Shown here: one piece after another, positions 1 to 57,084 of the stretch | How the letters are laid out: the number at the start of each line of letters is the position of its first letter | How positions within the stretch are numbered: position 1 is the first letter of the stretch | Assembly (NCBI RefSeq): GCF_004135975.1 | Contig: NZ_CP026538.1 | Span: forward strand, 124,001-188,000 | Source: Solidesulfovibrio carbinolicus | GTDB lineage: Bacteria > Desulfobacterota > Desulfovibrionia > Desulfovibrionales > Desulfovibrionaceae | Reading direction: 5' to 3' | Length of the DNA: 64,000 bases | The notes under the pieces: generated by a model | The model's database searches: none | Told to the model about the DNA's origin: nothing | Seen by the model: only the letters and a program-made list of their open reading frames with translations | Program-made: the position numbers and the translations under genes

Positions 1-440
1 GCTTTGCCCAGTACCTGGCCGGCATGGCGTTCAACAACGCCTCCCTGGGTCATGTCCACGCCATGGCCCACCAGCTGGGCGGCTTCTATGACCTGCCGCA
101 CGGCGAATGCAACGCCATCCTGCTGCCCCACGTCGAGAAGTTCAACCTGATCGCCAAGGCCGAGAAGTTCGCCGCCATGGCCGAGATCATGGGCGAAAAC
201 ACCGCCGGCCTGTCCACCCGCGACGCCGCCGAACTGGCGCTCAAGGCCATCCGTCAGCTGTCCGCCGACGTCGGCATCCCGGCCGGCCTCATCGAGCTTG
301 GCAAGAAGTACGGCAAGGACGTCAAGGCCTCCGACATCCCGACCATGACCGGCAACGCCCAGAAGGACGCCTGCGGGTTCACCAACCCCCGCTGCCCGAC
401 CGACAAGGACGTGACCGACATCTACACCGCCGCCCTGTAA
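1..440 (+). CDS. Iron-containing alcohol dehydrogenase, C-terminal part (cut by window start)
   Basis: Only the last ~145 codons are present; the reading frame is open from base 3 and no start is visible. The fragment carries the metal-binding end of the Fe-dependent alcohol dehydrogenase family: a histidine-rich stretch (GHVHAMAHQLGG) followed by PHGECNAILLPHV, where the histidines bind the catalytic metal. The usual family length is about 380-390 residues. In Desulfovibrio such an enzyme sits directly upstream of hdr-flx and oxidises ethanol to acetaldehyde with NAD+; that role here is inferred from the fragment and from the hdr-flx genes that follow at 907. A strong terminator follows at 465-484, so the downstream operon probably has its own promoter. 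A second, full-length relative lies at 53403-54545 but is clearly diverged. Confidence 0.93.
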   Translation, partial: FAQYLAGMAFNNASLGHVHAMAHQLGGFYDLPHGECNAILLPHVEKFNLIAKAEKFAAMAEIMGENTAGLSTRDAAELALKAIRQLSADVGIPAGLIELGKKYGKDVKASDIPTMTGNAQKDACGFTNPRCPTDKDVTDIYTAAL

Positions 441-464
441 CAATCAGGAACGCGGGATGCGAAA

Positions 465-489
465 GGGGGGCCTTCGGGCCCCCCTCTTG
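465..489 (+). terminator. Intrinsic terminator after the alcohol dehydrogenase
   Basis: A perfect 8-bp GC stem (GGGGGGCC, 465-472) closes on the stable TTCG tetraloop and pairs with GGCCCCCC (477-484), followed by TCTTG. It begins 25 bases after the stop codon. The U-tract is poor, but stem strength and position fit a terminator separating the dehydrogenase from the hdr-flx operon. Confidence 0.75.
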
Positions 490-598
490 ACGAGCGGCCC
501 CGGGGATTTTCCCGGGCGGCACGTCACGCGGCAAACGATGATAACGGCAATCCGGCATGGCCCACGGCCGTGGCAGCGACCCGGCCATGCCTTCTTGC

Positions 599-741
599 GG
601 ACGCATTCTCAGGCCGAAAATGCGTCCGAACGGACCGAAAATGCGGCCCATGACGGCCGAAATTTTCCGACTTTGTACCAAAACGGCACAAGGTCACTAT
701 GCCAAAAATCTGGAGCTTTGGCATAACCACGCGACTACAAT
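599..741 (+). promoter_or_regulatory. Operator-rich control region upstream of hdrC
   Basis: Several inverted repeats are packed into this stretch. GGACGCATT (599-607) pairs with AATGCGTCC (619-627), spacer 11. CCGAAAATGCG occurs at 614-624 and again at 635-645, 21 bp apart (two helical turns), with a weaker CCGAAATTT at 657. TTGTACC (673-679) faces GGCACAA (685-691). TATGCCAAA (698-706) faces TTTGGCATA (717-725), a perfect 9-bp pair with spacer 10. A TACAAT at 736-741 could be a -10 box but lacks a good -35. A GG-N10-GC pair (844-845/856-857) is the best sigma54-like candidate but is otherwise a poor match. The repeats are seen directly; which proteins bind is unknown, with the NtrC-type regulator at 10658 an obvious candidate for some of them. 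Confidence 0.55.
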
Positions 742-906
742 CGGTTTTTTCCTCCAGGCTCGACGCCCGGTCCGGGGTGGCAAACACCTGACCGCCGTGC
801 TATCCACCCCGGACTGCGGTCGTCGTGCCCGCCGGGGGGGTCTGGGCGTCTGGGCGCTCCGCTAGCGATAGTGTCGTCACCTTTCACGTCAACCGGATAG
901 GATCGA

Positions 907-1467
907 ATGAACATCATCAATCTCACCCGCGATTATGACGAGGATTTCGTTCACAGGGTGGAGGAGGAGTCCGGTCAGAACGTCAGCCTGTGCTACCAGT
1001 GCGGGAACTGCACGGCCGGCTGTCCGTACACCTTTGCCTACGACATCCCCGTCAGCCAGATCATGCGCCTCGTCCAGGCCGGCCAGAAAAAGACCGTGCT
1101 TTCCAGCAAGTCCATCTGGCTGTGCGCCACCTGCGAATCCTGCACCACCCGCTGCCCCAACATGATCGACGTCGCCTGCGTCATGGACGTGCTGCGCCAC
1201 ATGGCCCGCCGCGAGGGCCTGGCCGCCGTGCCGCAGGTCAAGACGTTCTGGGACAGCTTCCTGGATTCCGTGCGCGCCCACGGCCGGGTTTTCGAACTCG
1301 GGCTGCTCATCAACTACGTCGCCAAGACCGGCCGGTTCTGGACCGACATGGACCTCGGCCCCAAGATCCTGCCCAAGGGCAAGCTCGGCTTCACGCCCCA
1401 CGACATTCAGGGCAAGGAGCACGTGGCCCGGATTTTCGAGCGTTTCGAGAGGGAGTCCAACTCATGA
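907..1467 (+). CDS. hdrC: Heterodisulfide reductase-like subunit C (HdrC)
   Basis: Small electron-transfer subunit of the cytoplasmic HdrABC-Flx complex. The 186-residue protein has two classic [4Fe-4S] motifs: C29-x2-C-x2-C-x3-C (CYQCGNCTAGCP) and C73-x2-C-x2-C-x3-C (CATCESCTTRCP), which relay electrons between HdrA and HdrB. The ATG at 907 follows a GGATAGGA-type ribosome site. It is the first gene of a tightly packed operon, and its stop overlaps the hdrB start (ATGA). In Desulfovibrio vulgaris the equivalent cluster is linked to ethanol formation and oxidation. The natural disulfide substrate in sulfate reducers is not CoM-S-S-CoB; DsrC has been proposed. Confidence 0.93.
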   Translation: MNIINLTRDYDEDFVHRVEEESGQNVSLCYQCGNCTAGCPYTFAYDIPVSQIMRLVQAGQKKTVLSSKSIWLCATCESCTTRCPNMIDVACVMDVLRHMARREGLAAVPQVKTFWDSFLDSVRAHGRVFELGLLINYVAKTGRFWTDMDLGPKILPKGKLGFTPHDIQGKEHVARIFERFERESNS

Positions 1468-2345
1468 GCGAAGCCATCGCCTACTACCCGGGCTGTTCGG
1501 GCCTGGGCACGTCCAAAGAGTACGACACCTCCACCCGGGCGGTGTGCGCCGCCCTGGGACTGTCCCTGGTGGACATCCCGGACTGGAGCTGTTGCGGCTC
1601 GTCTCCGGCCCACACCAAGGACCATGTGCTCTCCGCCGCCCTGGCCGCCCGCAACCTGCAGCTCGTGTCCGACATGGGGCTTAAGGCCGCGGCCACGCCC
1701 TGCCCGAGCTGCCTGACCAACCTGCGCACGGCCAACCACCGCTGCGAGGCCGCGCCCTTTAAGGCCAAGGTCGACAAGCTCCTGGACGACCCCTACGCCG
1801 GCGGCGTCAATGCCGTGTCCGTGCTCCAGGCCCTCACCGAGATGGTCGGGCTGGACGCCGTGAAATCGGCCGTCCGCACGCCGCTTAAAGGCCTCAAGGT
1901 GGCCTGCTACTACGGCTGCATCATGAACCGGCCGCCCGAGCTCATGGCCTTTGACGACTGCGAAAACCCCATGGCCATGGACAACATCCTGGCGGCCATG
2001 GGGGCCGAGGTCGTGCCCTTTCCGCTCAAGGTCGAGTGCTGCGGGGCCTCCTACGGCATCCCCCGGCCCGACGTGGTGGCCAAACTCTCCGGCAAGCTCC
2101 TGGACGTCGCCCAAAGCGTCGGCGCGGACATGGTCGCCGTGGCCTGCCCCTTGTGCCAGATGAACCTGGATCTGCGCCAGGGCCAGATCAACCGCGCCGG
2201 CGGCACCAACTACCGGATGCCGGTCCCTTACTTCACCCAGCTCATGGCCGTGGCCCTGAACATCGCGGACGAGGACATCGGGTTTGGCAAGCTCTGCGTG
2301 GACCCCAGGCCCGTCCTTTCCAAGGCCCTTGCGGTCGCGGACTAA
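1464..2345 (+). CDS. hdrB: Heterodisulfide reductase-like subunit B (HdrB)
   Basis: Catalytic subunit with two CCG domains, 293 residues. The first domain shows YYPGCSGLG, then DWSCCGSSPAH (C43-C44) and CPSC; the second shows CYYGCIMNRP, VECCGASYG and CPLCQMN. In methanogen HdrB these cysteines hold two non-cubane [4Fe-4S] clusters that cleave a disulfide. The start was set at ATG 1464, which overlaps the hdrC stop; the frame is open further upstream, but that part is shadow of hdrC. It is presumed to form the disulfide- (or DsrC trisulfide-) reducing end of the complex. Confidence 0.93.
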   Translation: MSEAIAYYPGCSGLGTSKEYDTSTRAVCAALGLSLVDIPDWSCCGSSPAHTKDHVLSAALAARNLQLVSDMGLKAAATPCPSCLTNLRTANHRCEAAPFKAKVDKLLDDPYAGGVNAVSVLQALTEMVGLDAVKSAVRTPLKGLKVACYYGCIMNRPPELMAFDDCENPMAMDNILAAMGAEVVPFPLKVECCGASYGIPRPDVVAKLSGKLLDVAQSVGADMVAVACPLCQMNLDLRQGQINRAGGTNYRMPVPYFTQLMAVALNIADEDIGFGKLCVDPRPVLSKALAVAD

Positions 2346-2364
2346 CAGCGAGGGAGCATAGGCA

Positions 2365-4323
2365 ATGCGAATCGGCGTTTTCGTCTGCCACTGCGGCAGC
2401 AACATCGAAGGCACGGTGGACACCGCGACCGTGGCCAAGGCGTCCCTGGATTTTCCCGAGGTCGTCTACGCCACGGACACCATGTACGCCTGCTCGGAAC
2501 CCGGCCAGGACGGCATCATCCAGGCCATCAAAGACAAAAACCTTACCGGCGTGGTGGTGGCTTCCTGCACCCCGCGCATGCACGAGCCCACCTTCCGCAA
2601 GGCCGTCGAACGGGCGGGGCTTAACCGCTTCATGTTCGAAATGGCCAACATCCGCGAGCACGTCTCCTGGATCGGCCGGGACCGCGAGGCCAATACCAAC
2701 AAGTCCGTGGATCTGGTGCGCATCGCCGTGGAAAAGCTGCGCCGCGACGCGCCGCTGATCCCCAGCAAGTTCTCGGTCAACAAGCGCGTCATGGTCATCG
2801 GCGGCGGCGTGGCCGGCATCCAGGCGGCCCTGGACTGCGCCGACGGCGGCCTTGAGGTCGTGCTGGTCGAGCGCGAATCCTCCATCGGCGGCAAGATGGC
2901 CAAGCTCGACAAGACCTTCCCCACGGTCGACTGTTCGAGCTGCATCCTGGGCCCCAAGATGGTCGACGTGGCCCAGCACCCCAACATCACGCTCCACGCC
3001 TACGCCGAAGTCGATTCCATCGGCGGCTACGTGGGCAACTTCCAGGTGCAGGTCAAAAAACGCGCCACCTACGTCGATTGGGAACTGTGCACCGGCTGCG
3101 GGGCCTGCATGGAGAAGTGTCCGAGCAAGAAAAACCCGGACGCCTTCAACGAAAAGATCGGTCCCTGCACCTCCATCAACATTCCCTTTCCCCAGGCCAT
3201 CCCGAAAAAAGCGGTCATCGACCCCACCACCTGCCGCCAGTTCGTCAAGGGCAAGTGCGGCGTGTGCGCCAAGGTCTGCCCGACCAAGGCCATCCGCTAC
3301 GACATGACCGATGAGATCGTCACCGAGGACGTCGGCGCCATCGTGGCCGCCACCGGCTACGACCTCTTCGACATCTCCAAGGTGACCGAGTACGGCGGCG
3401 GGCGCTACCCCGACGTCATCACCGGCCTGCAGTACGAACGCCTGCTGTCGGCCTCCGGCCCCACCGGCGGCCACATCAAGCGGCCCTCGGACGGCAAGGA
3501 ACCCAAAAACGTCGTCTTCATCCAGTGCGTGGGTTCGCGCGACAAGTCCCTGGACCGGCCGTACTGCTCGGGCTTCTGCTGCATGTACACGGCCAAGCAG
3601 ACCATCCTGACCAAGGACCATATCCCGGATTCCCAGTCCTACGTCTTCTACATGGACATCCGCTCTCCCGGCAAAATGTACGACGAGTTCACCCGCCGGG
3701 CCATGGAAGAGTATGGCGCGCGCTACATCCGGGGCCGCGTGGCCATGGTCTACCCCAAGGGCGACAAGATGATCGTGCGCGGGGCCGACACCCTGGCCGG
3801 CACCCAGGTCGAGATCGAAGCCGACCTGGTCGTCCTGGCCGCCGGCGCCGAAGCCGCCAAGGGCGCGCCCCAGCTGGCCGAGAAGCTGCGCATCTCCTAC
3901 GACAAGTACGGCTTTTTCATGGAAAGCCATCCCAAGCTCAAGCCCGTGGAGACCAACACCGCCGGCGTCTATCTGGCCGGTTCCTGCCAGGGTCCCAAGG
4001 ACATTCCCCAGTCCGTGGGCCAGGGCAGCGCCGCCGCCGCCAAGGTTTTGGCCCTGTTCTCCAAGGACATGCTGGAAAGCGATCCGCAGATCAGCCGCGT
4101 GGACATCAAGCGCTGCGTGGGCTGCGGCAAGTGCATCATGACCTGCCCGTTCAAGGCCATCAAGGAAGTCGAATTCCGGGGCCAGAAAAAGGCCGAGGTC
4201 ATCGAGACCGTCTGCCAGGGCTGCGGCATCTGCACCTCCACCTGCCCCCAGGGGGCCATCCAGCTGTCGCACTTCACGGACAACCAAATCCTCGCGGAGG
4301 TCAACGCCTTATGCCAGTCCTGA
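2365..4323 (+). CDS. hdrA: Heterodisulfide reductase-like subunit A (HdrA), FAD-dependent bifurcating core
   Basis: The 652-residue flavoprotein is the electron-bifurcating core of the complex. Visible features: an N-terminal CHCGSN cysteine motif (C8, C10), the FAD-binding GGGVAG at about 146-151, two central cluster motifs (CTGCGACMEKCP at 242-253, CGVCAKVCP at 298-306) and two C-terminal ferredoxin motifs (CVGCGKCIMTCP at 584-595, CQGCGICTSTCP at 617-628). In the family, HdrA splits an NADH or H2 electron pair between ferredoxin and the disulfide. SD-like GAGGGAGCATAGGC precedes the ATG. Its last 13 bases overlap flxD, indicating translational coupling. Length and motifs are typical. Confidence 0.95.
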   Translation: MRIGVFVCHCGSNIEGTVDTATVAKASLDFPEVVYATDTMYACSEPGQDGIIQAIKDKNLTGVVVASCTPRMHEPTFRKAVERAGLNRFMFEMANIREHVSWIGRDREANTNKSVDLVRIAVEKLRRDAPLIPSKFSVNKRVMVIGGGVAGIQAALDCADGGLEVVLVERESSIGGKMAKLDKTFPTVDCSSCILGPKMVDVAQHPNITLHAYAEVDSIGGYVGNFQVQVKKRATYVDWELCTGCGACMEKCPSKKNPDAFNEKIGPCTSINIPFPQAIPKKAVIDPTTCRQFVKGKCGVCAKVCPTKAIRYDMTDEIVTEDVGAIVAATGYDLFDISKVTEYGGGRYPDVITGLQYERLLSASGPTGGHIKRPSDGKEPKNVVFIQCVGSRDKSLDRPYCSGFCCMYTAKQTILTKDHIPDSQSYVFYMDIRSPGKMYDEFTRRAMEEYGARYIRGRVAMVYPKGDKMIVRGADTLAGTQVEIEADLVVLAAGAEAAKGAPQLAEKLRISYDKYGFFMESHPKLKPVETNTAGVYLAGSCQGPKDIPQSVGQGSAAAAKVLALFSKDMLESDPQISRVDIKRCVGCGKCIMTCPFKAIKEVEFRGQKKAEVIETVCQGCGICTSTCPQGAIQLSHFTDNQILAEVNALCQS

Positions 4324-4796
4324 CCGGCAAGGAACTGCGGATCGTCGGATTCCTGTGCAACTGGTGCTCCTACGGCGGCGCGGACACGGCAGGCGTTGGG
4401 CGGTTCAATCAGCCCACGGACCTGCGGATCATCCGCGTGCCCTGCTCCGGGCGCATTGATCCCCTGTTCATCGCCAAAACGCTCATTAACGGCGCCGACG
4501 GCGTCCTCGTCTCCGGCTGCCACCCGCGCGACTGCCACTACGCCGAGGGCAACTTCTACGCCCGCCGGCGTCTGGAAGTCCTCAAGCGCTTCCTGCCTAT
4601 CCTGGGCATCGACCCGGCCCGGTTCGACTACACCTGGGTCTCGGCCTCGGAAGGCCAGCGCTGGCAGAAGGTGGTGACGGTCTTTACCGAACAGATTCAC
4701 GCCCTGGGACCGGCGACGCGCCACGAGAACGTGTCCCCGGAACTGTTGGCCAAGGTCGCTTCGGCCATCCAAGGAGGCAACCGTGTCGCGGCTTGA
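4311..4796 (+). CDS. flxD: FlxD / MvhD-type iron-sulfur subunit
   Basis: Of 161 residues, with the MvhD-family cysteines C16-x2-C19 (FLCNWCSYGG), C45 (PCSGRID) and C70-x4-C75 (GCHPRDC). MvhD carries a [2Fe-2S] cluster that connects the electron-input module to HdrA. Here the input module is the flavin enzyme FlxA rather than a NiFe hydrogenase. The start at 4311 lies inside the hdrA 3' end (13-base overlap), and the stop overlaps the start of flxC by 14 bases, so the three genes are translationally linked. The symbol follows the published flxABCD-hdrABC naming in D. vulgaris. Confidence 0.9.
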   Translation: MPVLTGKELRIVGFLCNWCSYGGADTAGVGRFNQPTDLRIIRVPCSGRIDPLFIAKTLINGADGVLVSGCHPRDCHYAEGNFYARRRLEVLKRFLPILGIDPARFDYTWVSASEGQRWQKVVTVFTEQIHALGPATRHENVSPELLAKVASAIQGGNRVAA

Positions 4797-5754
4797 CGCT
4801 CTTAAAACCCGCATCAAGGAGGCTTTGCCCGGCCTTGAATGCGTCATCGGTTGGCAGAAAGGCTACGACGCCCTGCACAACACGCCGCTGTTCATCCGCG
4901 GCGAGGCCGACGTGGACAAGCTGGAGTGGGGGGCGCTCAACGTCCACAATCCGGCCGTCTACCTGCCGAGCTTTGCCGGCAAGAAGGTCGGCGTGGTGGT
5001 CAAGGGCTGCGACTCCCGCTCGGTGGTCGAACTGCTCCAGGAAAAACTCATTGACCGCGACAACGTCGTGATCTTCTCCGCCGGCTGCGACGGCGTGGTG
5101 GACATCGCCAAGGTGCGGGCCAAGCTGGCTGCCGCCGGATTAAACGCCGGCAACGCCGAAAAGGTGGCCGTGGACGGCAAGACCGTCACCGTCACCGCCG
5201 CCGGCAAGGCCGTGTCCATGCCCATGGCCGAGGTGGCCGCCGACAAGTGCCTGCGCTGCCAGTTCCCCAACGCCGTGCTGGCCGACGCCTTTGTGGGCGA
5301 CCCGGCTCCCCAGGTCCAGGCCGCGCCGGCCGCCGACGCCGACCTGGCCGCCCTGGACGCCATGAGCGTGCCCGAGCGCATGGCTTTCTGGCGCTACCAC
5401 ATGGACCGCTGCATCCGCTGCTACGCCTGCCGCAACGCCTGCCCCATGTGCGTGTGCCGCGACCACTGCATCGCCCAGAGCCGCGAGCCTCACTGGCTGA
5501 GCCAGGAAGACTCGGTGACGGAAAAGCTGATGTTCCAGGTGGTCCACGCCATGCACCTGGCCGGCCGGTGCACGGAATGCGGCGAATGCCAGCGGGCCTG
5601 CCCCATGGATATCCCGGTTCTGGCGCTCAAGAAGCACCTCAACCGCACCATCCACGACCTGTTCAACTACCAGGCCGGTGTTGACGTTGCCGCGATCCCG
5701 CCGCTTTTGCAGTTTAAGCTCGAGGAAGACAACATCAAGGAGCGAAGCTGGTAA
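4783..5754 (+). CDS. flxC: FlxC-like iron-sulfur protein of the Flx-Hdr complex
   Basis: A 323-residue cytoplasmic protein. The N-terminal half resembles FrhB/HdrA-accessory ferredoxin proteins (VVKGCDSRSVVELLQ, and a lone CLRCQFPN motif). The C-terminal half has two ferredoxin motifs, CIRCYACRNACPMC with a further C-x-C, and CTECGECQRACPMDIP. Members of this family pass electrons between FlxA and FlxB/D. The assignment of C rather than B is by position between flxD and flxB and could be swapped. Overlaps flxD by 14 bases and flxB by one base (TAATG). Confidence 0.82.
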   Translation: MSRLDALKTRIKEALPGLECVIGWQKGYDALHNTPLFIRGEADVDKLEWGALNVHNPAVYLPSFAGKKVGVVVKGCDSRSVVELLQEKLIDRDNVVIFSAGCDGVVDIAKVRAKLAAAGLNAGNAEKVAVDGKTVTVTAAGKAVSMPMAEVAADKCLRCQFPNAVLADAFVGDPAPQVQAAPAADADLAALDAMSVPERMAFWRYHMDRCIRCYACRNACPMCVCRDHCIAQSREPHWLSQEDSVTEKLMFQVVHAMHLAGRCTECGECQRACPMDIPVLALKKHLNRTIHDLFNYQAGVDVAAIPPLLQFKLEEDNIKERSW

Positions 5755-6800
5755 TGGCCGCCGTCAAATACATCCCCCGGGAGAAACTCCCCGAGTGGCT
5801 CAAGGCCCTGGCCGCCCAAAGCCGGGTGCTCGTCCCCGTCGAGGAAGGCGGCAGCGTGGTGTTCCGGCAATACGACCCGGCCCGCGCTCCGGTCTTCGGT
5901 TCCGACGCCACGGCCCCGCCCAAGGGCGCGGTCTTCCCGGCCAGCCAGGAGCTTTTCAGCTACGCCTACGGCAAGGAAGGCGAGGACCACGCCCCGACCC
6001 TCAAACTTGATCCCAAGACCGAAGCCCAGCCCACGGTGGTCTTCGGCTCCAAGCCCTGCGGCGCGCGCGGATTTCTCATCTTCGACCGCGTCTACATGGG
6101 CAAGAAGTTCCCGGACCCGTATTACATCGCCGCCCGTGAAGCCACGGTGTTCGTGACCATGGCCTGCGCCACGGTGGAGAACACCTGCTTTTGCCACTGG
6201 GTCGGCTCCGGCCCGGCCGACGCGGCCGGCTCGGATGTGCTCTTAACCCCGGTCGAAGGCGGCTACACCGTCGAGGCCGTAAGCGAGAAGGGCGCGAAGT
6301 TCCTGGACAACCCGGCCCTGGCCGACGGCGCGGCCAAGGCCGCCGAGGCCGAGGCCGTGAAAAAGGCCAGCCGCGACGCCCTGGGCGAAGCCCCGGACAT
6401 CGCCTCCTCGCCGGCGGCGCTTTTGGCGCTCTTCGACGACATGGAGTTCTGGCGCGACCAGTCCGACAAGTGCGTGAGCTGCGGGGCCTGCACCTACCTG
6501 TGCCCCACCTGCTACTGCTTCTCCATCACCGACGAAGGCACGGGCACGGCCGGCCGGCGGATGCGCTCCTGGGACGCCTGCATGCACTTCCAGTTCACCC
6601 TGGAAGCCTCGGGCCACAACCCGCGTCCGACCAAGGCCCATCGCCTCAAAAACCGCGTCGGCCACAAGTTCAGCTACTACCCGACCCTGCACGACGGGCT
6701 TATCGCCTGCTGCGGCTGCGGGCGCTGCGTGAAAAGCTGCCCGGTCTCGGTGGACATCCGCGAGATCGTGCAAAACGCCGTGGCCAAGGCCAAGGGCTAG
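5754..6800 (+). CDS. flxB: FlxB-like iron-sulfur protein (anaerobic sulfite reductase A-like)
   Basis: A 348-residue protein of the AsrA-like 4Fe-4S family, predicted soluble. Motifs: GSKPCGARGF in the N-terminal part, then CVSCGACTYLCPTCYC and a C-terminal CCGCGRCVKSCPVSVDI. AsrA/AsrB-like pairs couple an FeS protein to a flavin NAD(P)H reductase, which here is flxA (6811). The gene starts within the flxC stop codon (TAATG), so the whole hdrC-to-flxB run is translationally coupled except for the 19-base gap before hdrA. Expected role: an electron wire from the FAD of FlxA to HdrA. Confidence 0.85.
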   Translation: MAAVKYIPREKLPEWLKALAAQSRVLVPVEEGGSVVFRQYDPARAPVFGSDATAPPKGAVFPASQELFSYAYGKEGEDHAPTLKLDPKTEAQPTVVFGSKPCGARGFLIFDRVYMGKKFPDPYYIAAREATVFVTMACATVENTCFCHWVGSGPADAAGSDVLLTPVEGGYTVEAVSEKGAKFLDNPALADGAAKAAEAEAVKKASRDALGEAPDIASSPAALLALFDDMEFWRDQSDKCVSCGACTYLCPTCYCFSITDEGTGTAGRRMRSWDACMHFQFTLEASGHNPRPTKAHRLKNRVGHKFSYYPTLHDGLIACCGCGRCVKSCPVSVDIREIVQNAVAKAKG

Positions 6801-6810
6801 AGGTTTACCC

Positions 6811-7647
6811 ATGACCGATCCATTCAATCCCTATCTGCCGGAAGTGGCCACCATCCTGGAGACCGTCCAGGAGACCCACAACATCATGACCTTCCGGGTG
6901 CGTTTCGACGACGAAGCCAAGATGAAGGCCTTCACCTTCGAGCCGGGGCAGGTGGGCCAGCTGTCCGCCCCGGGCATCGGCGAATCGACCTTCGTCATCA
7001 ACTCGCCCCCCACCCGCATGGACTACCTCCAGTTCTCGGTCATGCGGGCCGGCGAAGTGACGGCCAAGCTGCATACGCTCACGGCCGGCGACAAGATCGG
7101 CGTGCGCGCGCCCCTGGGGAATTCCTTCCCCGTGGCCGACATGAAGGGCAAGGACATCGTGTTCGTCGGCGGCGGCATCGGCATGGCCCCGCTGCGCACG
7201 CTGTTCCTCTACATGCTCGACAACCGGGCCGACTTCGGCAAGATCCGCCTGCTCTACGGCGCGCGTTCGCCCCTGGACATGGCCTTTTCCGCCGAACTGC
7301 CCGAGTGGACCGGACGCAGCGACATCGAAACCACGCTGACCATCGACCGCGAGGCCGAGGGCTGGCAGCACAAGGTGGGCCTTATCCCCAACGTACTGCT
7401 GGAAATGGCCCCGGCGGCCGACAACTGCGTGGCCATCACCTGCGGCCCGCCCATCATGATCAAGTTCACCCTGGAAGCTCTCAAAAAGCTGGGCTTTGCC
7501 GATGAACAGATCGTGACCACGCTGGAAAAGCGCATGAAGTGCGGCATCGGCATCTGCGGCCGTTGCAACATCGGCACCAGCTACGTCTGCGTGGACGGCC
7601 CGGTGTACACCTACGCCCAGCTCAAACAGCTCCCCAACGAACTGTAA
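6811..7647 (+). CDS. flxA: FlxA, NAD(P)H-oxidising FAD/[2Fe-2S] subunit
   Basis: A 278-residue ferredoxin-NADP reductase-fold protein (PyrK/AsrB type). The N-terminal flavin domain contains STFVINSPP; a nucleotide-binding GGGIGMAPLRTL follows near residues 117-128; four C-terminal cysteines (C244-x4-C249-x2-C252, then one in SYVC) match the [2Fe-2S] site of this family. It should oxidise NADH in the cytosol and feed HdrA, allowing bifurcation or, in reverse, NADH formation from ferredoxin and a thiol. Last recognisable gene of the hdr-flx operon; a repeat hairpin at 7702-7724 separates it from the next gene. Confidence 0.9.
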   Translation: MTDPFNPYLPEVATILETVQETHNIMTFRVRFDDEAKMKAFTFEPGQVGQLSAPGIGESTFVINSPPTRMDYLQFSVMRAGEVTAKLHTLTAGDKIGVRAPLGNSFPVADMKGKDIVFVGGGIGMAPLRTLFLYMLDNRADFGKIRLLYGARSPLDMAFSAELPEWTGRSDIETTLTIDREAEGWQHKVGLIPNVLLEMAPAADNCVAITCGPPIMIKFTLEALKKLGFADEQIVTTLEKRMKCGIGICGRCNIGTSYVCVDGPVYTYAQLKQLPNEL

Positions 7648-7691
7648 GAGTCCACGCACGAAGACAAAGACGGGAGCCGACACGCTCCCAT

Positions 7692-7742
7692 TCCGGGGGG
7701 ACCGGGGGGGATGATCCCCCCCCGGCCGCCGGAGGCCTCTTC
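7692..7742 (-). repeat. REP-like intergenic hairpin repeat, copy 1
   Basis: Reads, on the minus strand, as the block GAGGCCTCCGGCGGCC followed by a hairpin (CCCCCCC-AT/AT-GGGGGGG) and a C-rich/G-rich tail, matching the other family members at 12001, 14359, 15136, 28688, 37024, 42043, 48972 and 62041. It lies between flxA and the ferritin-like gene and may also attenuate transcription there. Confidence 0.7.
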
Positions 7743-7757
7743 AAAAGGAGACGCGAC

Positions 7758-8249
7758 ATGGCTCGTTTTTTCAGCGCCAGCGACATTGTCGGCACGGCCA
7801 TCGAGATCGAGCGCCGGGGCCGCAACGTTTACAGCAAGGCGGCGGCTGCCGCCACGAATCCCGACGTCAAAAGCTTCCTGGAGTTCTTTGCCGGCGAGGA
7901 AGCCCGCCATCAGGCCATTTTCGAGGCCATGGCCGGGCGCATCGCCAAGATCGAGGTGCCGGCCGGCAGCGATGAGGAAGAGTACATGGACTATGTCCAG
8001 GCCCTGCTCGACTCCCACGCGCTTTTCTGCGGCGGAGCCCCCGAAAAGGATCTGGCCAACGCTTCCGACGCCATTGCCGCCATTGAGCTGGCCGCCCGCT
8101 TCGAAAAAGACACCATCCTCTACTTCCGCGAGATGATGGACCTGCTGCCGCCGGCTGAGTCCGGCATCGTCAAGCAGTGTCTGGACGAAGAGCGCGGCCA
8201 CCTGCGCCAGTTGACCAAGATGCTGGCCACCCTTCGCCGCAGCGCCTAA
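7758..8249 (+). CDS. Ferritin-like diiron protein (rubrerythrin domain only)
   Basis: A 163-residue, all-helical protein with the spacing of the ferritin/rubrerythrin family: EIERRGRNVY, then EEARHQAIFEAM (ExxH), then ARFEKDTILYF and DEERGHLRQL (ExxxH). These glutamates and histidines form a diiron site that, in the family, reduces peroxide or O2. The rubredoxin domain of classical rubrerythrin is absent, so it needs an outside electron donor. ATG 7758 is chosen because AAAAGGAG sits 9 bases upstream. It follows the Flx operon on the same strand and could be read through. Function as peroxide defence is inferred from family only. Confidence 0.88.
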   Translation: MARFFSASDIVGTAIEIERRGRNVYSKAAAAATNPDVKSFLEFFAGEEARHQAIFEAMAGRIAKIEVPAGSDEEEYMDYVQALLDSHALFCGGAPEKDLANASDAIAAIELAARFEKDTILYFREMMDLLPPAESGIVKQCLDEERGHLRQLTKMLATLRRSA

Positions 8250-8364
8250 CCGTCCGAGACGGGACGGCCGGCTTGGGCCGGGCGTCCCGAAACCGCGCGT
8301 TTGGGGCCGGCGGCAGGTGATTGCCGCGTCGCCGGCCCAAACGCCAGCCGGGGGGAGGACGATC

Positions 8365-9207
8365 ATGTACCACGATGTGTTCGGCTTTGACGCCATGCCT
8401 CTGGCCAGCCCCCTGGACAGCGCCCCTGGCACCCGGGCCGCCGAAGCCCTGGAGCAGGGACTGTCCGCCCGATTGCTTGGCCTTGTGCTCGCTTCCGATC
8501 TGTTCGCCGCCCGCACGGGTTCGCCCCGCCAGTCCCGGCATAACGTCCCGGTGGCCGCCTGCTGGCCCGGCGCGGCCATCGTTGTCTCCGGCGAGGCCCT
8601 GGACCAGGACGACCTCGACGCCTTTCTCGGCTGCCTGCTGCTGGCCCTGCGCAGCCCCATGCGCGGTTCGGCCCGTTTTCCCCTGCGCGATCTGGCCCGG
8701 CTGATCCGGCCCAAGGCCCGGCGTTTCGACGTCCGCCGCCTGGAACGCTCGCTGTGGCGTCTGGCCGCCTGCCGCCTCAACGTGGAAGAAGCCGGCGGCG
8801 GCTACGCCCTGCAGCTGCGCCTGCTCGACGCCGTCCTGTGCGACCGCCGGGCCGGGCTGTGCGCCGTGGACGTCGGCCCGCGCATGCTGGCCGCCTGCGG
8901 CGACCCGGAACGCATGGAGCGCCTCCTCGCCGCCCGTGCCCCCCTGGCTGACGGCTTTGCCCGCTGGCTGGCCGGTTTCCTGTCCTACGGCCCGGCCGCC
9001 CTGCGGCTGGATTTCACCGCCCTTCGCCGCTTGTCCGGGTTGTCGCGCCAGCCCATGGCCGCCTTCCGGGTCCGGGCCGTGGCCGCGCTGCAGGATTTTC
9101 TGGGCCTTGGGGCCATTGCCGCCATAGAGTCCGCCGGTCCCGACCGGCTCATCGTCTCCCGGCCCGCCGCCAGGGGCGAGGAGCCGGCCTGTCTGCTGCT
9201 GTCGTAA
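8365..9207 (+). CDS. TrfA/RepA-type plasmid replication initiator-like protein
   Basis: A 280-residue protein whose order of blocks resembles the TrfA/RepA initiators of broad-host-range plasmids. After a variable N-terminus comes LDQDDLDAFLGCLLLA, then LRDLARLIRPKARRFDVRRLERSLWRL and, near the C-terminus, a second winged-helix-like region (ALRLDFTALRRLSGLSRQP). TrfA binds iterons and opens the plasmid origin. Here no iterons and no partition genes are seen nearby, and the neighbours are chromosomal metabolism and two-component genes. It may be a domesticated initiator or a DNA-binding regulator of the same fold. ATG 8365 is preferred over 8317 because GGGGGAGGA lies just upstream. The recognition is by pattern, not by search. 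Confidence 0.6.
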   Translation: MYHDVFGFDAMPLASPLDSAPGTRAAEALEQGLSARLLGLVLASDLFAARTGSPRQSRHNVPVAACWPGAAIVVSGEALDQDDLDAFLGCLLLALRSPMRGSARFPLRDLARLIRPKARRFDVRRLERSLWRLAACRLNVEEAGGGYALQLRLLDAVLCDRRAGLCAVDVGPRMLAACGDPERMERLLAARAPLADGFARWLAGFLSYGPAALRLDFTALRRLSGLSRQPMAAFRVRAVAALQDFLGLGAIAAIESAGPDRLIVSRPAARGEEPACLLLS

Positions 9208-9387
9208 CGCCAGACCCCATGGAACGGCATGATGTCCGCGGCCGCCGGTGAGGATGAAAAATCCTGGGACGCATCGCAAAAGGCTCCCCAGCGTCTACGA
9301 TTGGACCGGCTTGTGCCCGGTCCGGCGCGCACCTTGCCGCTGCGGCGGCTGACCCTGGACGTGCTCCGCGACGGGCGGGAATCCTTC

Positions 9388-10657
9388 ATGACGCCATCGC
9401 GCTTGCGCACCCCCCTGCCCAGACGCTCCATGGAACCCCTGGCCGCCGACGTCCTGCCCCATCCGCCAAGCCTGGAAGACCTCATCGGCATTGAGCACAG
9501 CAAGCTCGGGTTCTATCAGGAGCTGCGCCAGAAGGTCGAAGAACTCCAGGACGCCCACCAGGAATCGGAGCTGCGCCGCCAGGAGATCGCCGCCATCCTC
9601 GACGGCATCACCGACGTCATGATGGTGCTCACCAAGGACCTGCGCATCATCTCCGTCAACCACGTCTTCCACGAACTTTTCGACGTGCCGCGCCCCGAGG
9701 GCCAGCACTGCTACAAGCTGTTCCGGGCCTCGGCCTCGCCCTGCCCGGAATGCCCGGCCCATCGCTCCTTTCGCTCCAACGCCGTGTGCCGGTGCATGGG
9801 CACGTTCAAGATCCACGGCCTCAGCCGCCGCTTTGAGATGGTGGCCTCGCCCATCCACAATCCCGACAGCCCGGAATCGCGCATCCTCATCTTCAAGCGC
9901 GACGTCACCCTGGAAAACGAATACCAGGCCAAGTATTATCAGGCCGAAAAAATGGCCACCATCGGCATGTTGGCCGCCGGCGTGGCCCATGAGATCAACA
10001 ATCCCCTCACCGCCGTCTACGGCCTGGCCGAGGGCATCCGCCGCCGGCTGCCGGCCATCCGCGCGGCCGTGGACGACGACCTCTACGTCGACGTGGCCGA
10101 ATACACCGAAACCATCCTCATGGAATGCCGCCGCTGCCGCGACATCGTGCGCTCCATGCTGTCCTTTTCCCGGCCCCACACCCTGGCCTTCTCGCCGGTG
10201 TGCTTAAACGAAGTCGTCACCGACACGTTGAGCATCCTGCGCAGCCGGCTGGAGGACCGGGCCGCCGCCGGCCTGCGCCTCACCGTCAACCTGCACCAGG
10301 GTTTGCCCACGGTGGCCGGCGACGAGGCCCAGCTCAAGCAGGTGCTTCTCAACATCCTGGTCAATTCCATGGACGCCATCGAGGGCGAAGGCGAGATCAC
10401 CGTCACCACCCATCCCGAGAACGACAACACCGTGAACCTCTCGGTGGAGGACACCGGTCGGGGCATCCCGCCGGACAACATGGACAAGCTTTTCAATCCA
10501 TTTTTCACCACCAAGCCCGTGGGCCAAGGCCTGGGCATCGGACTTTCCACTTGCTACAGCATCGTGCGCGAACACCACGGGGTCATCGAGGTGGCCAGCG
10601 AAGTGGGCATCGGCACGCACTTTACCGTGAAACTTCCCCTCGACAGCGGGCATCCCA

Positions 10658-10665
<8 letters not shown>
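9388..10665 (+). CDS. PAS-domain sensor histidine kinase (NtrB type), paralogue 1
   Basis: Soluble kinase without membrane segments. Order: a short helix (SLEDLIGIEHSK), a PAS domain with a cysteine pattern (QHCYKLF, then CPECPAH), the phospho-acceptor H-box GVAHEINNPLTA (H near residue 201), then the HATPase with N, G1 (DTGRGIPP) and G2 (GQGLGIGLST) boxes. The same architecture and the opening SLEDLIGIEHSKLGF recur at 54545-55759. The frame is open from ATG 9229, but codon choice before about 9300 looks non-coding and the paralogue starts close to SLED, so 9388 (or 9430) is the likelier start. It overlaps the regulator gene by 8 bases, so the two form a cognate pair. Signal unknown; the PAS cysteines suggest metal or redox. 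Confidence 0.9.
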
Positions 10666-11989
<1,324 letters not shown>

Positions 11990-12000
11990 GTCGTTTTTTT

Positions 12001-12047
12001 GCCTCCGGCGGCCGGGGGCCTGAGGCCCCCGGACCCCCCACATGGGG
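12001..12047 (+). repeat. REP-like intergenic hairpin repeat, copy 2
   Basis: GCCTCCGGCGG block, then the hairpin CCGGGGGCC-TGA-GGCCCCCGG (12012-12032), then CCCC-ACAT-GGGG as a second small hairpin. It directly follows the regulator stop and a T7 run (11994-12000). One of the most complete copies of the family. Confidence 0.8.
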
Positions 12048-12229
12048 AAAAGGGTTAAGGGGGTTCTCTGTCGGTCGGCGCGCCCAGGCGGTCGGCAATG
12101 GCGCATGGGCGCAAACGCCGTTGCCTCTGGCGGGGCGGCGGCACTTGCGCTAGGCTGGTCGCCGTCCAGGCGGCATCGGCCCGGCCCGTTTGGCGCGCCC
12201 ATGCTGTTATCCCAACCATCGGAGGCTCC

Positions 12230-12556
12230 ATGCGCACCATTCCCGCCTGCGTCCTTGCCTTGGCCCTGTGTCTGGCGGCCGCGACCCCGGCCTTGGCCAA
12301 GAAACAGCAACAACCCCAGAATATCGACTTCGGGGCCGTCACCTGCAAGGAATTCATCGCCGAGATCGCCGCCGGCGACGAGGAATCGGCCGGCATCATC
12401 CTCATGTGGATCGACGGCTACTTGAGCGGCGTGTCCGGAGACGCCGTGCTCAATTGGAAGAATCTCGAAGCGTTCTCCGGTTCTCTCATGGAAGCCTGCG
12501 CCAAAAAACCCGGCAAGAAGGTTCTGGATGTGGCCAAGGACATCGGCATTAACTGA
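12230..12556 (+). CDS. HdeA/HdeB-like small periplasmic protein
   Basis: A 108-residue exported protein. Residues 1-22 form a signal peptide (MRTIPACVLALALCLAAATPALA). The mature part matches the HdeA pattern: IDFGAVTCKEF, then ILMWIDGYLSG, then MEACAKKP, with the two cysteines that form the single disulfide of HdeA. In enterics HdeA is an acid-activated chaperone; here an acid role is only a family inference. ATG 12230 is set by GGAGG five bases upstream; the frame is open from 12098 but that part is not coding-like. Stands alone between a repeat element and the channel gene. Confidence 0.8.
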   Translation: MRTIPACVLALALCLAAATPALAKKQQQPQNIDFGAVTCKEFIAEIAAGDEESAGIILMWIDGYLSGVSGDAVLNWKNLEAFSGSLMEACAKKPGKKVLDVAKDIGIN

Positions 12557-12619
12557 TCCGCAACGGCTCGCAAACACGGCGCGGGGGCCAAGGCCCCTCG
12601 CCGTGACGGCCCACCGCCC

Positions 12620-13816
12620 GTGAACGCCCCCACCGCCTTCCTGCGCCATCTGTTCGCCTCCACCCTGGCCACGGCCACGGCCCTGGTGGCCGCTATTCTG
12701 CTGTTGGCCAGTCTGGGGTTTTATTTCGTCGAACTGCGCGACATCCCCGGCCGGACCCTGTTCGATGCCCTGTGGTGGGCCATGACCACCCTGTCCACCG
12801 TGGGTTACGGCGACATCGTGCCCGCCACCGTGCCGGGCCGGCTCATCGGCATGGGCATCATGGGCGCGGGCATCGGCATCATGGCCGCCCTGACCGGCAA
12901 CCTGGCCTCGGCCCTTATTGAGCGCCGCAACCGCAAACGCCTGGGGTTACTGCCCGTGAAAACCGCCGGACACAGCATCGTGCTGGGCTGCAACGCCCAT
13001 GCTCCGGGGCTGATCAAAGCCCTGGCCGCCGCTGCGCCGCCCACGCGCGGCCCGGCCGTGGCTCTGGTCGCCCAGCTCACCCCCGAAGCTTTTGCCGAAC
13101 TGGCCGCCGACCTGGGCCTGGAGGAACGCCTGACTTTTTGCCGGGGCAACCCGGCCCAGGAGAGCGTCGTGGCCCGGGCCGCCCCGGCCGCCGCCCGGGC
13201 CGCCTACATCCTGTCCCAGGACGGGCTGTCGCCGGAAGAGGCCGACCAGCAAACGCTGCTCACCGCGCTGACCTTTCGGAGCCTGGCCCCCAAGGTCCAG
13301 CTCTACGCCGAGGCCCTGCTCGAAACCAACCGCAAGCATCTGGCCCGGGCCGGCGTGGACGTGACCCTGGTGCGCGGCGACCTCACCGAACGCGCCCTGG
13401 AAACCATGGGCGAGCACCCGGCTCTGTGGCATTTTCTCGAACGCCTGCTCGGCACGTCCGGCCATCGGGCCATGCGCGCCCGGGCCATGAGCCACGACGA
13501 AAAAGCCCTGCGCTGGTCGGCCCTGGTCGGCCAGGCCCTGGCCGCCGGCGACGGCCTGCCCGTGGCCGTCTTCCGCCTGCGCCGCGACATCACCATCAAG
13601 GAACTCCTGGACGCCGACTCGGCCCTGGACCAGTTCATCCTGGAAATGTTTGCCGCCTACGGCCAGGAAGGCCGCCTGGGCCGCCAGGGGCCGGCCGTGG
13701 CCGTCAATCCCGGCGACGGCCTGGATCTGGCCGATTTCGACGGCCTGATACTCCTGGAAACCCAGGCCCCGCCGGCCAAGGCCCATGCTCCGGCCGGCGA
13801 CGGAGAACAGCCGTGA
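12620..13816 (+). CDS. Two-TM potassium channel with TrkA-N/RCK domain
   Basis: A 398-residue membrane protein. A first membrane helix (about 11-34), a pore loop with the K+ selectivity filter TVGYGD (about 58-63) and a second helix (about 72-92) precede a cytoplasmic RCK/TrkA-N region (HSIVLGCNAHAPGLIKAL), in which the usual GxGxxG is degenerate, then an RCK-C-like tail. This is the MthK-type layout, giving ligand-gated K+ flux. GTG start at 12620. The gene ends in a GTGA overlap with a cyclic-nucleotide-binding protein, so the two are made together. Confidence 0.88.
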   Translation: MNAPTAFLRHLFASTLATATALVAAILLLASLGFYFVELRDIPGRTLFDALWWAMTTLSTVGYGDIVPATVPGRLIGMGIMGAGIGIMAALTGNLASALIERRNRKRLGLLPVKTAGHSIVLGCNAHAPGLIKALAAAAPPTRGPAVALVAQLTPEAFAELAADLGLEERLTFCRGNPAQESVVARAAPAAARAAYILSQDGLSPEEADQQTLLTALTFRSLAPKVQLYAEALLETNRKHLARAGVDVTLVRGDLTERALETMGEHPALWHFLERLLGTSGHRAMRARAMSHDEKALRWSALVGQALAAGDGLPVAVFRLRRDITIKELLDADSALDQFILEMFAAYGQEGRLGRQGPAVAVNPGDGLDLADFDGLILLETQAPPAKAHAPAGDGEQP

Positions 13817-14340
13817 ACGGCGAGGCCCTGAAAAAAGCCGCCCTGTTCGCCGACCTCGCCGACGACGAACGCGACCGGCTCGTGCCCGCGTTCACGCCCT
13901 TGTCCCTGGCCGCCGGCCAGGCGGTCATCGTCGAAGGACAGCCCGGAGACGAGATGTTTTTGCTCACCTCCGGCCGGGTGCGCGTCACCAAGGCCATGCT
14001 GCTTAAGGGCATCGTCGCCCCGGGCCTGGACGGCGCTGCCGCCGAGAAAACCCTGGTGGAGCTCTCCGACGCCCAAAGCCCCTTTTTCGGGGAAATGGCG
14101 CTGCTGGATCGCGACATCCGTTCGGCCACCGTCACCTGCCTCACCGACTGCCGCTTTTTGCGCATCGACCGCGACGCCTTTTTTGCATGCCTCCAGGCCC
14201 ATCCGGCCCTGGGCGTCAAGGTGCTCGCCGCCCTGGCCAAACGCCTGGCCGGGCTTGTGCGCAAAAACAACGTCGAAGTGGTCAAGCTCACCACCGCCCT
14301 GGCCCTGGTCTTAAGCCGGCGGGGGGCGGAGAGAAGATAG
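13813..14340 (+). CDS. Cyclic nucleotide-binding domain protein, coupled to the K+ channel
   Basis: A 175-residue single-domain protein of the CAP_ED/cNMP family. The beta-roll contains VIVEGQPGDEMFLLTSGRV and the phosphate-binding cassette FGEMALLDRDIRSATV, with the glutamate and arginine needed for cAMP/cGMP contact. No helix-turn-helix follows, so it is not a CRP-type regulator. Its GTG start overlaps the channel stop (GTGA), suggesting it is a detachable gating subunit of that channel. A 40-residue insertion within the roll (around LLKGIVAPGLDG) is a little unusual. Confidence 0.85.
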   Translation: MNGEALKKAALFADLADDERDRLVPAFTPLSLAAGQAVIVEGQPGDEMFLLTSGRVRVTKAMLLKGIVAPGLDGAAAEKTLVELSDAQSPFFGEMALLDRDIRSATVTCLTDCRFLRIDRDAFFACLQAHPALGVKVLAALAKRLAGLVRKNNVEVVKLTTALALVLSRRGAERR

Positions 14341-14358
14341 AGCAGGGAAGAGCAAGAA

Positions 14359-14405
14359 GCCTCCGGCGGCCGGGGCCTGAGGCCCCGGACACCCAAAAGG
14401 GGGGA
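14359..14405 (+). repeat. REP-like intergenic hairpin repeat, copy 3
   Basis: GCCTCCGGCGGCC block followed by the hairpin CCGGGGCC-TGA-GGCCCCGG. The stem is one pair shorter than at 12001 on both arms, so pairing is kept. Lies after the cNMP protein gene. Confidence 0.75.
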
Positions 14406-14439
14406 AGGTCCAAGGGGGGCGGCGCAGCAGTGAGGAACC

Positions 14440-15114
14440 ATGCCTACGGATCGCACAAAAATCGAAAAAGCCCTCTTCATCGCCAAGAAAAATCTGGCCG
14501 GGCTGGTCTATGACTTCCAAACCCTGGAAGGCATGCCGTTCACCCTGCCGGAAGTGCAGACCTACCTGCAGGGCATTACGGTCGGCGGCCATAAGATCGA
14601 AGACGAAGACAAGCTCAAGCAACAGGCCCTGGCCTGGAAGCAGCTCATTGTCTTGGTGGAAACAAACAGCTTTGTGTTTTCCAAGGCCACGGCCTGCGCG
14701 CTCCAGGCCATCGTCGCCAAGGACGAGGCCCTGGAAATCGGGAGGTTTCGCCAAGGGCAAGTATGGATCAAAGGGGCTGACTACCTGCCCCCGGACCACG
14801 AAACCCTTGACGCCCGTTTCCAGGCCTTGTGCGAAAGAATCAGCGCCCTGGAAGATCCCTTCGAACAAGGCGGCGTCGCGGCCCTGGACATGGCGCGTAA
14901 TCAGTACTTTTACGACGGCAACAAGCGAACCGGTTTTCTCATGATGAACGGCTTGTTCCTGACAAACGGCCTTTTGCCTTTCAGCGTCCCGTCTAAGCAC
15001 GTCCTGGACTACAATATCATGGTGTTGGAGTATTATGCTACGGGTAACGAAAGGCCCATGCGCCGTTTTTTCGAAGAACAGTACGCGGCCCAGTATCCTG
15101 GTTTCCATAGGTGA
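14440..15114 (+). CDS. Fic-family protein with Gln in place of the motif histidine
   Basis: A 224-residue protein. The N-terminal part has TLEGMPFTLPEVQTYLQGITVGG; the Fic core shows ARNQYFYDGNKRTGF. The Fic active-site motif is HxFx(D/E)GNGRxxR; here the first histidine is glutamine and GNGR is GNKR. Fic enzymes AMPylate or otherwise modify proteins, and the histidine is the general base, so this protein may be inactive, use other chemistry, or act by binding. The TLEG segment near the N-terminus resembles the inhibitory S/TxxxE(G/N) helix. It sits between two repeat elements, and no toxin or antitoxin partner is seen. Confidence 0.8.
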   Translation: MPTDRTKIEKALFIAKKNLAGLVYDFQTLEGMPFTLPEVQTYLQGITVGGHKIEDEDKLKQQALAWKQLIVLVETNSFVFSKATACALQAIVAKDEALEIGRFRQGQVWIKGADYLPPDHETLDARFQALCERISALEDPFEQGGVAALDMARNQYFYDGNKRTGFLMMNGLFLTNGLLPFSVPSKHVLDYNIMVLEYYATGNERPMRRFFEEQYAAQYPGFHR

Positions 15115-15135
15115 GCGTTGAGGAGAGAAAGAGGG

Positions 15136-15180
15136 TCTCCGGCGGCCGACCGCCCCCCGGACCCCCGAAATGGGGGAAGG
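15136..15180 (+). repeat. REP-like intergenic hairpin repeat, copy 4 (degenerate)
   Basis: CTCCGGCGGCC, then a decayed core (GACCGCCCCCCGG) without the full palindrome, then CCCCC-GAAAT-GGGGG. Lies between the converging Fic and BPL_N genes, where the C5/G5 hairpin could end transcription. Confidence 0.65.
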
Positions 15181-15200
15181 AGCAAAGGGGGAGCGGCGGA

Positions 15201-55759: not shown

Positions 55760-57084
<1,325 letters not shown>

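Follow-up and report, generated by a model that had tools for sequence, protein, structure and literature searches.

Why should a bacterial chromosome carry a gene of plasmid replication-initiator type among the genes of electron metabolism? The question is raised by a reading frame in a 64,000-nucleotide stretch of the Solidesulfovibrio carbinolicus chromosome (the window; Table 1). A sequence-only reading had called its product a chromosomal relative of TrfA/RepA, and had proposed that it is either a domesticated initiator serving as a regulator or the trace of an integrated plasmid. The reading frame is intact: it begins with ATG at 8365, preceded by GGGGGGAGGA, a good ribosome-binding site, and its stop codon ends at 9207. 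The protein gives a single match in its own 4.69-Mb genome, and its closest named relatives are encoded by two metagenome-assembled genomes of Solidesulfovibrio magneticus (97% and 94% identity). Compared with six relatives in the genus, the gene has a dN/dS of 0.14-0.37, well below 1, which supports coding; in each of the six comparisons the value is higher than those of all five measured neighbours, and the gene is thus the faster-evolving one. It is under purifying selection.

Table 1. Features of the locus, in window coordinates. The hdr names follow the D. vulgaris cluster; the name floxD, the letter C of floxC and the letter B of floxB are our assumption.
Feature	Position	Strand	Remarks
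Iron-type alcohol dehydrogenase (adh), 3' part	24..440	+	gene starts before the window
Candidate regulatory site before hdrC	599..648	.	11-mer, one inverted and two direct copies within 50 bases: GGACGCATTCT, AAAATGCGTCC, AAAATGCGGCC
hdrC	907..1467	+	
hdrB	1464..2345	+	
hdrA	2365..4323	+	
floxD (MvhD-like)	4311..4796	+	
floxC (FrhB-like C-terminus, 4Fe-4S)	4783..5754	+	Pfam
floxB (Fer4_22)	5754..6800	+	Pfam
floxA (NAD/FAD-binding reductase)	6811..7647	+	Pfam; family distribution
Rubrerythrin-like protein, between floxA and the TrfA-like gene	7758..8249	+	Pfam
TrfA-type double winged-helix protein	8365..9207	+	280 aa, coordinates with stop; ORF, profile, AF2, Foldseek
Predicted first winged-helix domain	8533..8820	+	residues ~57-152; limits chosen by us from the model (DSSP, VIA alignments)
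Cys90 codon	8632..8634	+	Cys in 40/43 chromosomal, 5/21 plasmid-type sequences
Cys166 codon	8860..8862	+	Cys in 30/43 chromosomal, 0/21 plasmid-type
Predicted second winged-helix domain	8938..9162	+	residues ~192-266; limits chosen by us; recognition helix ~231-248
Cys276 codon, near the C-terminus	9190..9192	+	Cys in 37/43 chromosomal, 0/21 plasmid-type
PAS-containing histidine kinase	9229..10665	+	Pfam
NtrC-type sigma54 response regulator	10658..11989	+	Pfam

Homology and predicted fold

The protein is a homologue of TrfA, a relationship that is weak by single sequence and decisive by profile and predicted fold. As a single sequence, it matched zero families in Pfam and NCBIfam, its best PHROG match had an E-value of 0.26 and its best PDB sequence match one of 0.91; searched by sequence, whether single or as a profile, the PDB gave nothing meaningful. 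A tblastn search of 72,556 plasmids (E up to 1) returned six records, all of them TrfA of Arsenophonus nasoniae (best 27.2% identity, E 1e-8). We built a profile (A1) from 43 chromosomal homologues, representing 43 of 48 places (L032, L038 and L040 were left out as near copies, L062 for want of a chosen start and L078 for an in-frame TAG), and compared it with 21 TrfA proteins of plasmids and mobile elements (A2; 21 of 22, L127 being a near copy of L126); the sets A3 and A4 were made without L080 and L085. With hhalign, the two profiles aligned over 236 columns with a probability of 100 (E 3.3e-38), whereas five column-shuffled decoys and seven alignments of unrelated neighbours reached at most 0.5% probability.

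Among the A2 proteins, 20 of the 21 matched PF07042 at E up to 0.1. The curated cut-off of this family was reached in none of the 14 genus genomes, and one of the 43 chromosomal members matched it at E up to 1 (E 0.0092). Taken member by member at this same threshold, the weak Pfam matches of the 43 include the initiator families RPA (11 members, best 6.5e-4), RepC (four), Rep3_N (two) and TrfA (the one just mentioned); DUF3653 was matched by four members and nine families by one member each, and the best NCBIfam match was no better than E 0.015. The HMM search that the sequence-only reading had proposed as a check thus stays below the PF07042 cut-off with a single sequence and succeeds once profile is compared with profile.

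The AF2 model (pLDDT 83, pTM 0.82) comprises two winged-helix domains, and a second model, made with the plasmid-type sequences removed from the alignment, reached pLDDT 82 and pTM 0.81. Foldseek placed RctB first with both models (E 2.6e-7, and 5.0e-8 without the plasmid-type sequences), followed by RepE and pi. The VIA-align Z-scores were 14.7 for RctB, 11.9 for RepE, 10.3 for pi and 8.2 for the first domain of RepA, with 10-12% sequence identity in the structural alignments to RepE, pi and RepA. The solved TrfA structure (9a0w) ranked 11th (E 0.11) in Foldseek with the plasmid-free model and was not among the 50 Foldseek or VIA matches listed for the first model. Judged from these models, the double winged-helix initiator fold is present.

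A viral origin was rejected, given that a scan of viral contigs found no relative and that the PHROG match was so poor. A defence protein was likewise rejected, PADLOC having returned no match.

Distribution and gene order

Our sample of the taxonomic family, 199 genomes drawn from a larger group, contains 49 carriers of the TrfA-like protein in 15 of 44 genera, among them 14 of 14 genomes of the genus itself; absences are lower bounds, because the searches score only the best candidates per genome. A profile search of the same 199 genomes gave 52 carriers, the extra ones being G047 (E 3e-4), G050 (9e-19) and G154 (1e-26), which score far below the rest; the G154 locus has no hdr-flox. A draw of 395 genomes from the phylum produced 11 matches, two of them already counted in the taxonomic family. 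Eight outside relatives were scanned (L097, L098, L102 and L124-L128), and these adjoin ParA-type, TrbI, TraE or other type IV secretion genes, with no hdr-flox seen. In an unrooted tree, the 43 chromosomal sequences fall on one side of a branch with 100/100 support and the 21 plasmid-type sequences on the other; by sequence, then, the chromosomal TrfA-like proteins are one clade. Two further plasmid-type TrfA relatives (G181:C28, locus L079, and G181:C43) were seen in a genome of the same genus.

The placement of the TrfA-like gene between redox genes and a two-component pair had been recognized from the letters correctly: the redox genes lie upstream, the histidine kinase and the sigma54 response regulator downstream. 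The arrangement recurs in relatives. Distances to floxA and to the kinase were taken at 47 places, a set that omits the window itself, G136 and G055 (the regulator count given below covers 50 places). At 42 of the 47, floxA is encoded no more than 5 kb upstream, on the same strand. Four of the remaining five places are cut by contig ends and still have the rubrerythrin-like gene upstream; at the fifth (L070, genome G031), the upstream genes include adh, kinase and regulator, and floxA is on another contig. The rubrerythrin-like gene is found within 5 kb upstream at 38 of the 47 places, and G055 (L142) has both it and floxA upstream, at a contig end. At 26 of the 47, a kinase of at least 45% identity is encoded in the next 3 kb; in the genus, the kinase match starts 18-103 bases downstream in 13 of 13 loci, and in other loci (e.g., L052) the regulator stands about 10 kb off, on the adh side. 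Among the carrier loci, hdrC was seen in 36, and 34 of these have an adh gene within 1 kb upstream of it; among 12 non-carrier hdr-flox loci no such adh gene was seen, only five of them having more than 500 bases upstream of hdrC.

The gene has also evolved in step with its neighbours. In a Mantel test on 40 loci (without L062, L070, L078 and loci lacking an HdrA or FloxA of more than 150 aa), its pairwise distances correlated with those of HdrA at r 0.91, and at r 0.92 with one genus member retained (n = 30), with 0 of 2000 permutations reaching the observed value in each case; for FloxA the values were 0.85 and 0.83, respectively. Since its distances track those of HdrA and FloxA, and its dN/dS is well below 1, the TrfA-like gene is old, inherited with the cluster and selected. 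Its position in the adh-hdr-flox cluster is conserved at identities as low as ~25%, and no par or conjugation gene was found among the eight neighbouring proteins scanned, in agreement with the earlier remark that parA/parB and other plasmid genes are missing here. Presence in all 14 genus genomes and conserved synteny rule out a recent plasmid integration, and the proposal that the gene is the trace of an integrated plasmid is not supported. We conclude that the TrfA-type protein is real, conserved and domesticated, and that it has become a fixed member of an ethanol/electron-metabolism cluster on the chromosome of sulfate-reducing bacteria; profile, fold, tree and family-wide synteny all bear out both the kinship with TrfA/RepA and the domestication.

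Some features around the locus are recorded here in their own right. Downstream of the two-component pair, an HdeA/HdeB-family protein (12098-12556; Pfam E 5e-18) adjoins an ion channel, and a second response regulator, 72% identical to that of the locus, is encoded at 55759-57078 of the window (G000:C1:179759-181078). In two genomes of genus g8 without the TrfA-like gene, a 123-aa single-domain receiver lies directly downstream of floxA (L132:8860-9231 and L133:6978-7349), in the slot of the TrfA-like gene; a third locus (L131) has a receiver match there.

Which partner in the cluster does the protein serve? Matches to the response regulator (E up to 1e-130) occur in 76 of the 199 genomes, namely all 49 carriers and 27 of the 150 non-carriers, or, by genus, in 15 of 15 carrier versus five of 29 non-carrier genera (Fisher 7e-8, ignoring relatedness); this co-occurrence rests on related genomes, which need not represent independent events. 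At 47 of 50 places, the regulator and the TrfA-like gene are no more than 16 kb apart. In G032 and G055 the two are on different contigs; the third exception is a second gene copy in G051, which sits with hdr-flox and is accompanied by neither adh nor the regulator. A floxA is listed for 21 of the 27 non-carriers that have the regulator: in 11 it is on the same contig as the regulator, 83-913 kb away, in 10 on another contig (an assembly break being possible in all of these but G009 and G197, where we read the region around the regulator), and in none within 16 kb. All 10 of the non-carrier regulator regions that we read keep kinase, regulator and adh together, and nine have no hdr-flox there; in non-carrier G037, a kinase-regulator-adh-hdr run meets the contig end. 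From this co-occurrence and the adh linkage, it follows that the TrfA-like gene marks the joined adh-hdr-flox-regulator arrangement.

These counts bear on the idea that the protein has lost DNA binding and uses its fold as a platform for protein interactions, serving the Hdr-Flx complex in an accessory, assembly or allosteric role. Its same-strand position near floxA, the covariation with HdrA, the second G051 copy and the charge lost from the second recognition helix (see below) all agree with such a role. Against it, 118 of the 163 floxA-positive genomes have no TrfA-like protein by single-sequence search, and 12 floxA-positive, TrfA-negative loci were read without a homologue being found; moreover, the neighbours that the gene retains in G031 are adh, kinase and regulator, not floxA, and the protein occurs only in genomes with the response regulator. 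On balance, the linkage to the regulator favours a regulatory role over that of an Hdr-Flx subunit, with G031 speaking for this and the second G051 copy pointing the opposite way, and we regard the subunit role as unlikely. The exclusive occurrence in regulator genomes, together with the short distance to the kinase gene in the genus, could also be explained by a modulator or anti-activator that acts directly on the kinase or the response regulator instead of at DNA. A winged-helix fold points to DNA first, however, and we think such a modulator improbable.

Residues, repeats and origin features

Compared with plasmid TrfA, the chromosomal family has kept F47, G76, DQxD, R132-L133, R191 and W201-L202, and has lost the residues N and R from PN..RSALF and, in its second domain, SH..P.P..ET..LCGS. 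The QLSLF motif, which has a clamp-binding role in IncP TrfA, is present in none of the 43 chromosomal proteins and in four of the 21 plasmid-type ones, which are the four IncP-1 proteins. Charges and cysteines were compared in thinned sets of 22 chromosomal and 17 plasmid-type sequences, with p-values that ignore relatedness. The second recognition helix has a net charge of 0.82 in the chromosomal versus 2.76 in the plasmid-type proteins (p 0.001), that of the first does not differ (2.45 versus 2.29, p 0.52), and the whole first domain carries 4.27 versus 1.88 (p 0.05). The loss of positive charge from the second recognition helix means that DNA binding may be weakened. Taken together, the residue and charge changes would fit an altered binding of iterons, with the first domain kept for contacts with DNA or within a dimer.

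In the same thinned sets, Cys166 (15/22 versus 0/17) and Cys276 (16/22 versus 0/17) are confined to the chromosomal clade, and Cys90 (19/22 versus 5/17) is enriched there; none of the three is universal in the chromosomal family, and Cys90 is partly ancestral, given that five of the 21 plasmid-type proteins also have it. The added cysteines invite a redox or metal hypothesis, in which Cys90, Cys166 and Cys276 would switch dimerisation, or binding of DNA at the iteron-like repeat before hdrC, and the adh-hdr-flx locus would be set, along with the sigma54 two-component system, by the thiol/redox state that its own enzymes produce. We hold such a redox- or metal-responsive factor to be possible, though doubtful, the cysteine-based response being a further and weaker step than the regulatory role as such.

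The repeat in question, 7.7 kb upstream of the TrfA-like gene, is the candidate regulatory site of Table 1. In combining inverted with direct copies of one unit, it resembles the operators and iterons on which plasmid initiators act. When the units are joined into one pattern, the genome has a single match (0 for a reversed-pattern control). A single unit gives three matches in the window, all of them at this site, against 2.0 expected, and so is no commoner than chance. The outer two units, 39 bases apart from start to start and with at most one mismatch each, are conserved in nine of the 11 genus loci that have the gap (the window, L033-L036, L039-L041 and L043) and missing in L037 and L042; the middle unit was seen in five of these nine. 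In other carrier genera the repeat was not seen in the adh-hdrC gap, and single units elsewhere in carrier loci are scattered. We therefore consider 599-648 a genus-limited candidate site, which could equally belong to the response regulator.

A second element upstream of hdrC, at 670-694, is a dyad of the form ACTTTGT(A/T)CC-N8-ACAANGT (ACTTTGTACC-N8-ACAAGGT in the window), which is the only exact match in the genome. With two mismatches allowed there are nine hits, two of them the site itself, versus four for the reversed-pattern control, which is not far above. The dyad recurs with at most one half-site mismatch in eight of 10 genus loci besides the window; it was not found in the adh-hdrC gap of other carrier genera, where single matches lie elsewhere in the loci (L046, L065, L070, L076 and L077), and no operator conserved across carrier genera was found. 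We assign neither the repeat nor the dyad to the TrfA-like protein.

The adh-hdrC gap also holds, at 751-832 on the forward strand, a highly conserved, strongly foldable element (z -2.84 for 728-840), present in 13 of 14 genus genomes, with a possible pseudoknot GACCGC/GCGGTC (five sequences) and no family in Rfam, possibly an unnamed hdr-flox leader RNA. Ahead of adh, before the window (L115, upstream of 5260), nine aligned genus genomes share a sigma54-type -24/-12 sequence, TGGCCCGGGAATTGCT or a close variant; repeated GGACAA/TTGTCC half-sites occur in the same region.

No iteron array was found in the stretches searched around the TrfA-like gene, or by TRF on window positions 1-16000, and the window contains no tRNA. 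The remark that iterons are missing nearby thus holds for an array beside the gene and has to be amended for the short 11-mer repeat. In all 12 genomes compared, over 100 kb separates the gene from either DnaA_C match, and linkage to dnaA was not seen; nine of the 12 are single contigs of at least 99% completeness that carry the gene. Could the protein still initiate replication, either of a plasmid or from a cryptic origin on the chromosome? The retained fold and motifs (DQxD, R132-L133, W201-L202) and the small inverted and direct repeat would agree with this. The lack of an iteron array, the single-contig genomes with the gene far from DnaA_C, the lost second-domain features and the absence of QLSLF, though most of the plasmid TrfA proteins compared also lack that motif, make it very unlikely. 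Protection of the chromosome against incoming TrfA-type plasmids, by iteron binding or mixed dimers (incompatibility), seems even more far-fetched: the taxonomic family does contain plasmid-type TrfA genes (G181, G154), yet the tie to one metabolic-regulatory locus would be left unexplained and PADLOC gave no match.

Known systems and a probable regulatory role

The protein shares with TrfA of IncP-1 and related plasmids (PF07042) homology over the aligned columns, two winged-helix domains in the model and the F47, G76, DQxD, RL and WL motifs. It differs in that the family lies below the curated cut-off in the genus, forms a separate clade, is chromosomal, has neither an iteron array nor plasmid genes beside it, lacks QLSLF, has lost SH..P.P..ET..LCGS from its second domain and has gained cysteines. 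Domains 2-3 of RctB, the initiator of Vibrio chromosome 2, are the best structural match and offer a precedent for a plasmid-type initiator fixed in a genome, but RctB still replicates its chromosome, whereas the window protein lies in a metabolic cluster without recognized origin features. RctB represses its own promoter, according to the part of the source available (PMC6090056). RepE (F), pi (R6K) and RepA (pPS10) have the same double winged-helix fold, with RepE solved as a dimer on operator DNA (2z9o); these are plasmid-borne initiators of low sequence identity to the window protein.

In D. vulgaris, DVU2394 regulates the DVU2405-2397 operon of adh and hdr genes, as stated in the available text of PMC3333781. 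A table in a later paper, in the portion available, gives the target as DVU2405-DVU2399 (PMC4641369), in which case the TrfA-like gene would fall outside. DVU2394 also appears, in an excerpt of PMC8319347, as a recurrent mutation target in the evolution of syntrophy. In view of position and similarity, we take DVU2394 to correspond to the response regulator of our locus. With DVU2394 known to regulate the locus, the TrfA-like protein would be an additional member. From the assignments of FlxA to DVU2399 and Adh2 to DVU2396 in the accessible part of PMC10920352, the rubrerythrin-like protein should be DVU2398 and the TrfA-like protein DVU2397; on this numbering, and on the gene order in Desulfovibrio sp. 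A2 (L095), DVU2397 would be the D. vulgaris counterpart. Available extracts of other papers place the hdr-flox genes of D. vulgaris and D. alaskensis between two alcohol dehydrogenases (PMC4287179), name Dde_1214 of strain G20 a rubrerythrin beside hdr/flox-1 (Dde_1207-1213; PMC7376266, PMC4215793) and, for S. fructosivorans, describe a flx-hdr cluster downstream of adh while calling the role of the cluster and the regulation of adh unresolved (PMC10084766). In the portions of the literature available from a search on the locus and TrfA, we found no description of the TrfA-like gene.

The reading that we favour, and consider probable, is that of a domesticated initiator that has become a DNA-binding transcription regulator of the adh-hdr-flx locus. 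A plasmid TrfA-type initiator would have been captured in the ancestry of the Desulfovibrionaceae and retained by the chromosome, and would have abandoned the starting of replication. The double winged-helix protein would then bind a promoter of its own locus as a repressor or co-regulator, reusing the autorepressor activity already present in plasmid initiators of the same fold. The regulated set would comprise adh, hdrCBA and flox, in one cluster with the histidine kinase and the sigma54 response regulator. Linkage to the response regulator and co-occurrence with it make service as a regulator, suspected from the sequence alone, the best reading; within it, DNA binding, this locus as the target and the sign of the regulation are what we infer.

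The Hdr-Flx complex and the adjoining adh are central to the handling of NADH, ethanol and syntrophy in Desulfovibrio, and the TrfA-like gene is a direct knock-out target for studying how electron bifurcation is regulated. A chromosomal TrfA-like match need not signal an integrated plasmid, and a conserved, unnamed member of this locus that descends from a plasmid initiator would provide a clear example of an initiator that has taken on a different task.
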